NCBI RefSeq assembly: GCF_003025005.1
Contig: NZ_PVSS01000006.1
Coordinates: forward strand, 1 to 64,000
Length of the DNA stretch: 64,000 bases
Direction of reading: 5' to 3'
DNA from: Brumimicrobium mesophilum
Lineage (GTDB): Bacteria; Bacteroidota; Bacteroidia; Flavobacteriales_D; Crocinitomicaceae
Positions within the stretch are counted from its first letter, which is position 1. The number at the start of each line of letters is the position of its first letter. This document shows positions 37,448 through 39,759 of this stretch, piece by piece. A program made the position numbers and the translations under genes. The notes beneath the pieces were generated by a model. The model worked only from the letters and a program-made list of their open reading frames with translations. It was not told where the DNA came from and did not search any database.

Positions 37448-38299
37448 ATGAAAAATCAATTTTCAAAATGTATCGACAAACTCCAACTCGAATTGGAGTA
37501 CAGAAACTTCAGTCCAAGTAGTGTTAAAAGCTATTGTACGACAATGTCAGCAATGGAAAAGCGTTTAAATAAAGCGCTTTCTTCGATTACCACAGAAGAG
37601 TTTAAAGTCTACCTCCATGACTTAATTTTTAATCAAAAACGGTCAACCTCGTTTATCAATCAACACATCAGTGCTTTTAAAATTTTCTATTCAGATATTT
37701 TAAAAAATGATTGGGAAAGAATTAAAATTAAACGACCTAAAAAAGTTCAAAAACTTCCTGTGGTTTTATCAATGGACGAAGTCGAACGTCTTATTTCTGT
37801 AATCATTAACATTAAGCATAGAGCCATGGTAATGTTACTATACTCGGCTGGTTTGAGAAGATCTGAACTTCTTCAAATAAAACCATCTGATATTGATTCA
37901 GAAAATATGAAAATACATGTTAGACAGGGAAAAGGAAAGAAAGATCGATTTACTATTTTATCTTCGAAATGTCTTGAGTTATTGAGGTTGCATTACAAAC
38001 TAAACCGGCCTAAAACCTATCTTTTTGAACCTCAAGGAAACGAAGGAAGTACAATAGCTCCTACTTCTTTAGCAAATATTCTAAAGAAAAATGCTCAAAA
38101 AGCCAATATTAAAAAGGAAGTATCTCCCCATACTTTAAGGCATTCTTTTGCTACTCACATGTTAGAACAAGGTGTGAATATTAAACTCATCCAACGGTTT
38201 TTAGGGCACACCACACTAAAGACAACCTCGGTTTATTTGCATCTAACAAATATCGACCTTACAAAAGTGAAGTCACCATTAGAAAGTATGAATGTTTAA
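37448..38299 (+). CDS. tyrosine-type site-specific recombinase
   Basis: A 283-residue XerC/D-like recombinase. The N-terminal SAM-like core-binding domain covers about 1-95. The catalytic domain has all expected residues: Arg in SAGLRRSELLQI, Lys in GKGKKDRFTIL, HxxR in PHTLRHSFATHML, His/Lys in LGHTTLKTTSVY, and the Tyr nucleophile in the same stretch. It appears intact. Such genes are commonly paired with an IS91-type transposase in Bacteroidota elements, and here the next gene begins 11 bp after its stop. Confidence 0.9.
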   Translation: MKNQFSKCIDKLQLELEYRNFSPSSVKSYCTTMSAMEKRLNKALSSITTEEFKVYLHDLIFNQKRSTSFINQHISAFKIFYSDILKNDWERIKIKRPKKVQKLPVVLSMDEVERLISVIINIKHRAMVMLLYSAGLRRSELLQIKPSDIDSENMKIHVRQGKGKKDRFTILSSKCLELLRLHYKLNRPKTYLFEPQGNEGSTIAPTSLANILKKNAQKANIKKEVSPHTLRHSFATHMLEQGVNIKLIQRFLGHTTLKTTSVYLHLTNIDLTKVKSPLESMNV

Positions 38300-38766
38300 A
38301 ATCTTAGCTATGGAAAATAAAAGACAAACAATCGAACTTTCTGACATTTTTGAGGAGAATAAAGAGACCTTTCTTTCATCATCGAAATTGGTAAGTACTC
38401 AAAAAAAGGCTTTTAGAGATATTCTAAGTTGCAGAACTGAAAAACTAGGTGGACATGTGAGAGAATGTAATAACTGTGAAACAAAAGAGCAAGCCTACAA
38501 CTCTTGTAGAAATAGGCACTGTCCAAAATGTCAGTTTACAAAAAAAGCTAAATGGGTAGATAAACTAGCTTCAAATCTTCCTCCAGTAAAGTACTTTCAT
38601 CTTGTATTCACTGTTCCAGATAGCCTAAATGCTTTGTTTTATCTTAATCAAGCACAGGCCTATAATTTACTTTTCAAGGCTGCCAATGAAACAATAATGC
38701 AAACTGCCGAAAACATCAAGTATCTTGGAGCAAAAGCAGGAGGTGTTGCAATACTCCATACACCTG

Positions 38767-38779
38767 CCCCGTTAGAAAT
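38767..38779. repeat. left terminal inverted repeat of GIY-YIG unit
   Basis: CCCCGTTAGAAAT is the exact inverse of 39048-39060. On the minus strand it contains the last Phe codon and TAA stop of the GIY-YIG gene. Confidence 0.85.
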
Positions 38780-39032
38780 GGAGCTGATGTTTTAATCTAT
38801 TCTTTAAATACCTTCTACCCATACCTGATTTTAGATACTTTTCTCGTGCTATTACATCTGCTTTACTGAAGGAAACTTCGTAGTAAATAACTTTCCAGGG
38901 CATTTTTCGACTTGTTGTAATCGTTTTCCCTGAATTATGTTGAATTATGCGACTTTCTAGGTCTGATGTATACCCAATGTACCAAGAATTATCTTTTTTT
39001 GATGAGAGAACATAAACATAAAATCTTTCCAT
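38772..39032 (-). CDS. GIY-YIG nuclease family protein
   Basis: An 86-residue stand-alone GIY-YIG domain starting MERFYVYVLSSKKDNSWYIG. The GIY and YIG strands appear as YVYVL and YIG, followed by the Arg of DLESRIIQHNSG, the PWKVIYYE strand and the Glu of AREKYLKSGMGR, the usual catalytic set of the YhbQ/UPF0213 group. The longer frame start at 39089 lies in transposase DNA. The -7-like TATATTAG (one mismatch) is 5 nt before the ATG inside the unit. The stop codon lies within the terminal repeat. It appears intact and could make a nuclease. Confidence 0.88.
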   Translation of the reverse strand: MERFYVYVLSSKKDNSWYIGYTSDLESRIIQHNSGKTITTSRKMPWKVIYYEVSFSKADVIAREKYLKSGMGRRYLKNRLKHQLHF

Positions 39033-39047
39033 TGTACTAATATATGA

Positions 39048-39060
39048 ATTTCTAACGGGG
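39048..39060. repeat. right terminal inverted repeat of GIY-YIG unit
   Basis: ATTTCTAACGGGG is the exact inverse complement of 38767-38779. It sits 15 nt before the GIY-YIG start codon. Confidence 0.85.
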
Positions 39061-39759
39061 TGTGGGTCAAACATTAGTTTACCATCCACATATTCACATG
39101 ATCGTTCCAGCGGGTGGACTTTCTGAAGATGGTAGAGAATGGATACCTGCTCACAATAAGTTTTTTATCCCTTTTAAAGTTTTGAGTGCCATTTTTAGAG
39201 GTATTCTTTTTAAACACTTCGAGAAAGTCATTCAAAAAGGTGAGATTAAATTAACCAATGACATTAAAGATGTAGAAACATTAAAAGGAATATGGTACAA
39301 GAAAAAATGGGTAGTTTATACCAAAAAACCTTTTGCAAAACCTAACAATTTGATCAATTATTTAGGCAATTACACACACAGGGTGGAGATCTCCAATCAA
39401 CGTATATTAAAGCACACTGATGGCAAAGTTATCTTTGGTTATAAGGATTATAAAAATGCTGGTTTAAGAAAAACAATGTCGCTTTCAGAAGAAGAGTTTA
39501 TTAGGCGTTTTCTACAGCATATTCTTCCTTCAGGTTTTAGAAGAATACGCTACTTCGGGTTTATGTCCTTGCGGTTCTTAAAAGATAAATTAGTAAATGT
39601 GTTGAAATATTAAACAAAGCGGTGTTTCTACCAATCTTGGAAGGTTTAAACGCATTAGAAGTAGTGAGTTTTGTCATCAATAAGGACATTACTTCTTGCA
39701 AAAAATGCAAAAAAGGAAGAATGAGAGCAAAACACAAAATCATAGCTTCACCTACATGA

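Follow-up and report, generated by a model that had tools for sequence, protein, structure and literature searches.

The window analysed here, a stretch of 64,000 nucleotides from Brumimicrobium mesophilum, contains an IS91 transposase gene that is split in two by a block of DNA carrying a single GIY-YIG nuclease gene (Table 1). As a preliminary description of the locus had proposed, the transposase frame breaks off after GVAILHT and restarts at GQTLVYHPHIH, the block is bounded by 13-bp inverted repeats, and an intact nuclease gene lies between them. When the sequence was read directly, the two arms were found to be complementary at 13 of 13 positions with 268 nt between them. The gene is antisense to the IS91 frame, which the element interrupts with stops, and its TAA stop sits within one arm (TTTC-TAA-CGGGG). 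It is the sole gene of the element; no DDE/RNase H transposase gene is found inside, and the one antisense ORF leaves no space in the 294 bp for a known group I or group II intron core. The tyrosine recombinase encoded directly upstream is XerA/integron-integrase-like in NCBIfam, with scores below the cut-offs, and integrases of this kind were observed elsewhere as targets of sister elements (L030-L032, L034, L035 and L129).

Table 1. Features of the interrupted IS91 locus in the window.
Feature	Position	Strand	Basis
Tyrosine recombinase gene, directly upstream of IS91 transposase (context)	37448..38299	+	PF00589, 1.6e-37
Host IS91 transposase, 5' part (zinc-binding domain)	38292..38766	+	PF14319 (Zn_Tnp_IS91), 1.5e-30
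Whole element, 294 bp	38767..39060	- (orientation of its gene)	Boundaries as in relatives L009-L015; uninterrupted IS91 in L258
Terminal inverted repeat, 13 bp, CCCCGTTAGAAAT	38767..38779		Gene's 3' end; stop codon inside
GIY-YIG nuclease gene, 86 codons + stop	38772..39032	-	PF01541, E=7e-17; single domain + C-terminal helix
Terminal inverted repeat, 13 bp, ATTTCTAACGGGG	39048..39060		Gene's 5' end
Host IS91 transposase, 3' part	39061..39613	+	PF04986 (Y2_Tnp), 3.9e-52

The AlphaFold2 model of the window nuclease (pLDDT 91.5) consists of one GIY-YIG domain and a C-terminal helix, and its closest solved structures in Foldseek are UPF0213 proteins and Slx1, with which it has active-site motifs in common. 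The protein meets the criterion for the GIY-YIG superfamily, namely a domain with the catalytic Tyr, Arg and Glu, and it matched no family in PHROGs or NCBIfam. Five residues (Y7, Y18, R28, H32 and E64) are kept in 74-75 of 75 elements with terminal inverted repeats (TIRs). The dN/dS ratio is 0.065 between the window and Brumimicrobium copies and 0.09, 0.13 and 0.14 in three other informative pairs; judged from these ratios, the nuclease is maintained under purifying selection.

A comparison of filled with empty sites, which the preliminary description had suggested, was possible as an uninterrupted IS91 with 92% nucleotide identity to that of the window occurs in a Brumimicrobium genome (L258). 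The empty site reads CATAC-TTG-GGGTCAAAC, and the window reads CATAC-ACCTG-[element]-TGT-GGGTCAAAC. The ACCTG ahead of the element differs from the empty site, and the 3' part of the window gene opens with TGT-GGGTCAA where the corresponding empty-site stretch is TTGGGGTCAA. Reading these flanks as a clean target duplication was rejected, given ACCTG and TGT in the window against TTG at the empty site. The tryptophan codon between GVAILHT and GQTLVYHPHIH has also been lost, which makes the junction less than perfectly clean.

The Brumimicrobium genome with the empty IS91 also holds two filled copies, in which the insertion lies at the same codon. Their element is 88% identical to the window element at the nucleotide level (91% in amino acids) whereas the right halves of the IS91 transposases are only 40% identical in amino acids; the element and IS91 therefore differ in their history. 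The same codon is occupied in Brumimicrobium, Flavobacterium, a Saprospiraceae, a Crocinitomicaceae and a Sphingobacteriales genome, and CPR lineages and one Omnitrophota genome hold relatives at other sites. The best explanation, which together with the mobility mechanism proposed below we hold to be reasonably probable, is that the window copy is one of a clade that would insert specifically at the conserved HTWGQ codons of IS91 transposases. The window genome contains a single copy of the element; neither further copies nor the exact TIR 13-mer were found elsewhere in it. Two distant GIY-YIG genes are present in this genome (L002 and L003, on C7 and C78; 36-38% identity), with no tRNAs nearby and with flanking inverted repeats whose scores, 11 and 9, do not stand out from shuffles.

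A scan of 84,980 genomes yielded 20 relatives, nearly all of which have the same ends. Profile matches were found in 89 of 296 Bacteroidota genomes (E<=1e-15) and in 106 of 380 Patescibacteria genomes (E<=1e-22). A flanking inverted repeat score of at least 12 was reached by 86 of the 228 distinct family ORFs (38%) against 0.09% of shuffles, and by 15 of the 18 closest relatives. Conversely, of 16 TIR pairs found at full-element spacing, 14 have a GIY-YIG gene inside (reversed control, 0) and the remaining two are clusters of short copies. The search for repeat-flanked GIY-YIG genes that the preliminary description had called for was thus answered in many genomes, the layout being kept at unrelated sites in Bacteroidota, Patescibacteria (CPR) and Omnitrophota. 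No relatives were found in viral contigs, phages or plasmids. Many of the CPR genomes in the sample are metagenome bins; the Flavobacterium isolates DSM 19741 and DSM 19727 carry the element, the copy in DSM 19727 being decayed with a stop in the ORF and one end mutated. The end sequences vary by protein clade (GTTAGAAAT, GTGAGATA, GTTAAATAA, GCACATAAC, GCCTAAGTTTT and CACACCTAAT), most of them keeping an outer CCC(C)G. Divergence of the left TIR and of the protein are correlated (Mantel r=0.59, null sd 0.06), although such a result is also to be expected from co-inheritance alone.

Several comparisons bear on movement. Two integrase genes in one Bacteroidota genome (G148) are 82-89% identical and the elements within them 98.7% identical, and similar elements with unrelated flanks were observed in four pairs of loci (L078/L220, L024/L194, L195/L198 and L228/L248). 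Target duplications of at least 4 bp occur in 28 of 76 gene-bearing elements, against a null mean of 6.3 and a maximum of 15 in 1000 null runs; one example is a TGGG duplication within an IS91 (L014), where the flanks were read by eye and the automatic tally places it one base off. The target duplications asked for at the outset are therefore present as 4-bp repeats in family members, with no clean one at the window copy. At the level of sequence, the mobility of the unit, which is transferred entire to unrelated sites and between diverged IS91 copies, is well supported, and so are its ends and its duplications.

In CPR genomes, insertion was frequently observed at start codons. In 37 of the 76 gene-bearing copies, the start codon of a same-strand ORF of at least 80 codons lies -3 to +6 of the right end (control, 9%). 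From their N-terminal sequences, read without a database test, we take the host genes to include gyrA (L201), dnaG (L074), tsaD (L223), tsaE (L250), thrS (L196), lysS (L248), ychF (L240) and def (L228). The preferred CPR target T-N-N-A would often lie within a start codon (A|TGAA). For such a target, the last base of the element (A or G) followed by the duplicated TG gives ATG or GTG, which explains the start-codon pattern. With its ATG or GTG re-created, the host gene would still have a start codon, with the nuclease gene placed behind the host promoter. In some copies (L023 and L025), the nuclease gene has no start codon other than the host ATG as copied upstream, and its stop overlaps the regenerated ATGA. 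Such a start-codon fusion was considered as a uniform rule and rejected, as it holds for only 9 of 28 upstream ATGs. The enrichment may reflect target preference, selection against harmful insertions, or both.

CPR genomes were also found to hold dozens of gene-less copies of 60-145 bp that have the same ends and 4-bp T-N-N-A duplications; the ends are all that they have in common with the gene-bearing copies. The 10-mer end CCCCGTTAGA occurs 85+88 = 173 times in genome G560 against 1+2 = 3 for the control, corresponding to about 86 short copies, and tens of times in other CPR genomes. A strict 4-bp duplication was found in 30 of 43 short-copy pairs (61-132 bp) against 3.6 under the null (maximum 11 in 2000 runs), and the duplicated sequence is almost always T-N-N-A (consensus TNNA). 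Two short copies of one genome (L360 and L361) are 99% identical with unrelated left flanks. Short-copy pairs occur in 25 of 362 Patescibacteria genomes, and a close GIY-YIG relative is present in 24 of these 25 against 79 of the other 337 (p=1.8e-13); the exception, G319, has short copies and no GIY-YIG match at the threshold used. In the 393 kb read of genome G387, we found 20 short copies and two GIY-YIG elements, with two short-copy end types that match its two nuclease clades, and no gene other than GIY-YIG between family ends. Nine of these 20 short copies lie at start codons, both ends being counted. A 1.1-kb inverted pair in the same genome (L379, 16240-17460) was considered as a larger family member and rejected. 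It is an inverted repeat of more than 20 bp, with different ends, around a sigma-factor-like gene, and no transposase is present.

We think it probable, if well short of certain, that the family represents minimal DNA transposons that encode a single protein, a GIY-YIG nuclease resembling Slx1 and UPF0213, and are mobilised by it, and that the gene-less copies are non-autonomous derivatives; catalysis by the GIY-YIG protein is inferred. An autonomous copy would comprise about 265-345 bp, with TIRs around one gene for a nuclease of 80-90 residues, the TIR having an outer end of CCCCG or TCCCG and an inner part specific to the nuclease clade. The protein is inferred to recognise the inverted ends, or a cruciform that they could form, to cut at the element ends and to make a staggered 4-nt cut in the target; host repair would seal the product, and the gene-less copies would be moved in trans. 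To our knowledge, no GIY-YIG enzyme joins DNA strands, and we know of none that drives such transposition. If the protein can only cut, the joining must come from host repair. The known GIY-YIG cutters mostly make staggers of 1-2 nt and not 4, which counts against the proposal. The stronger statement, that this is a new transposon class with a GIY-YIG nuclease as the sole transposase, elements of about 280 bp, 4-bp TNNA duplications, gene-less copies mobilised in trans and regenerated start codons, is one towards which we lean only slightly.

The preliminary description had left open whether the block is a minimal mobile element that encodes nothing but the nuclease or a passenger that a transposase moves in trans. 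Its mobility has stood; whether it moves itself remains unproven. An unrelated transposase, for example an IS1380/piggyBac-like enzyme, may act on the ends with the GIY-YIG gene as mere cargo, which we regard as unlikely while taking it seriously. Such transposases have CC-type ends and short TTAA-like duplications, and the ends, the 4-bp duplications and the gene-less copies are all expected traces of a DDE transposase family. However, the IS1380 transposase (PF13701, DDE_Tnp_1_4) was found in none of 10 genomes, including G560 with its many short copies (control genomes were positive), and DDE_Tnp_1 (PF01609) was absent from 16 of the 18 genomes searched, mostly short-copy ones, being present in G667 and G558. 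Both families were accordingly rejected as autonomous partners. These absences, the co-occurrence of short copies with GIY-YIG genes over the 362 genomes and the fact that no other ORF stands between family ends in the sequence examined favour a self-moved element, and the purifying selection on the nuclease and the clade-specific ends also speak against cargo. A DDE transposase acting in trans, the main rival, loses support without being ruled out, as the two families searched do not exhaust the transposases.

A free-standing homing endonuclease would cut a specific site in empty alleles and have its gene copied by recombination, the repeats being incidental or an aid to folding. Homing is a classic activity of the GIY-YIG family, the IS91 group occupies a single conserved codon position in diverged IS91 copies, and two elements at one integrase site (L129 and L131) are more alike than their flanks. 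One conserved target site matches the IS91 and integrase clades in position but not the family at large; homing leaves the 4-bp duplications, the unrelated target genes and the gene-less copies with the same ends unexplained, and the window and donor-like IS91 flanks are too diverged for ordinary recombination. The family also fails the homing criterion of no target duplication and no trans-mobilised gene-less copies, and we consider this reading rather improbable. The preliminary description had remarked that homing enzymes normally live in introns or inteins, which is incomplete as free-standing ones exist; the conclusion is unaffected. We give still less credence to an intron-like or RNA-processed insertion whose ends pair in the transcript so that the insert is tolerated or removed at the RNA level. 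Some copies do lie in RNase P RNA genes, in which pairing of the ends would give a stem, and a published paper on CPR rRNA genes (PMC11270868) locates the insertions there at stem-loop tops or bases, but the window copy lies antisense to the frame that it interrupts and puts stops into it, the start-codon insertions require no splicing, and tolerance is accounted for without spread. Coincidental repeats around an ordinary GIY-YIG gene, the outcome named in advance as refuting, can be practically dismissed: nothing beyond the single locus favours them, only the small fraction of shuffles given above reaches the score, and the repeat pair recurs around GIY-YIG genes in three phyla.

The transposon reading can be set beside known systems. 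DDE insertion sequences with their MITEs have TIRs, short target duplications, one gene and gene-less derivatives in common with the family, which differs in having no DDE transposase and only a single-domain GIY-YIG nuclease within about 280 bp; of the corresponding criteria, TIRs are met, the fixed-length 4-bp duplication is met in the family and is not clean at the window, and the DDE gene is not met. Free-standing homing endonucleases such as SegA-H of phage T4 are likewise small selfish GIY-YIG genes, some with conserved target sites, but without the inverted ends, 4-bp duplications, many unrelated sites and gene-less copies (moved in trans, by inference) of the family. REPIN/RAYT systems resemble it in that many short palindromic copies stand in trans to a single nuclease-type gene. 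RAYTs, however, are HUH/Y1 enzymes without target duplication, a criterion not met here given the duplications in the short copies. The UPF0213 and Slx1 nucleases have the same fold and active-site motifs as the element nuclease but are cellular and have no bounding inverted repeats; Slx1 cuts branched DNA.

No description of such elements was found in the open literature searched (subscription papers were not covered), and a text search for the TIR 10-mer returned only unrelated subjects, judged by title and abstract; the family is apparently widespread and undescribed. The closest account reports GIY-YIG insertions in CPR rRNA genes that are sparse, lie at unconserved sites and qualify neither as introns nor as homing, together with many unexplained ORF-less insertions of less than 200 bp (PMC11270868; J Bacteriol 2024). 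The GIY-YIG content, the lack of an intron and the position outside homing are likenesses to the family. That paper covers rRNA genes only, and neither inverted ends nor duplications occur in the passages found in it, whereas the family here joins ends, duplications, protein-gene targets, Bacteroidota and gene-less copies. The rRNA insertions probably belong to the same family, an inference made without examining the rRNA copies themselves.

The known enzyme classes of DNA transposition are the DDE, HUH, serine, tyrosine and Cas1-like recombinases. If our proposal is true, an element with TIRs and target duplications that a GIY-YIG nuclease of about 86 residues drives adds an enzyme class and ranks with the smallest of autonomous transposons. 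Such an element would help to explain the abundance of single-domain GIY-YIG genes in Bacteroidota and CPR genomes, account for the dozens of short repeats in the latter and provide a compact trans-acting DNA mobility system for study. The start-codon insertions suggest a route into essential genes of streamlined genomes by which the host is not killed.

Further arrangements were observed at other GIY-YIG loci. Distant Bacteroidota GIY-YIG genes without family ends lie at tRNA genes (L040, L045, L046, L048, L049, L051-L054, L135 and L160), flanked by an intact tRNA and, opposite it, a broken 5' half that often has a GC-rich palindrome in its D-loop, as if the element supplied a replacement tRNA half. 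Tandem identical or near-identical GIY-YIG units beside a tRNA occur in L141 (G236:C1:119500-122770), L157 and L160, for example five matches with 450-bp spacing, as if a regenerated site had been hit repeatedly. In L037 and L039, a gene resembling sugar-nucleotide epimerases (MNILVTGGAGFI) has a GIY-YIG unit in its start, and a second, diverged copy of the first codons of that gene is found on the opposite side of the unit. Family end pairs surround a complete tRNA gene in three CPR genomes (L390 381-494, Met-CAT; L391 379-484, Thr-TGT; L392 367-462, Pro-CGG); these are possibly mobile tRNA cassettes, and no clean duplications were seen. The RNase P RNA gene is targeted convergently by different end types in Bacteroidota (L043, L044 and L047) and CPR (L124 and L209), as called with Rfam RF00010 except for L209, which was called by sequence only. 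Finally, the element in a Buchananbacteria genome (L019) directly abuts a CIRCE heat-shock operator half (GAGTGCTAA), and TGCTAA occurs again on the far side of the element.
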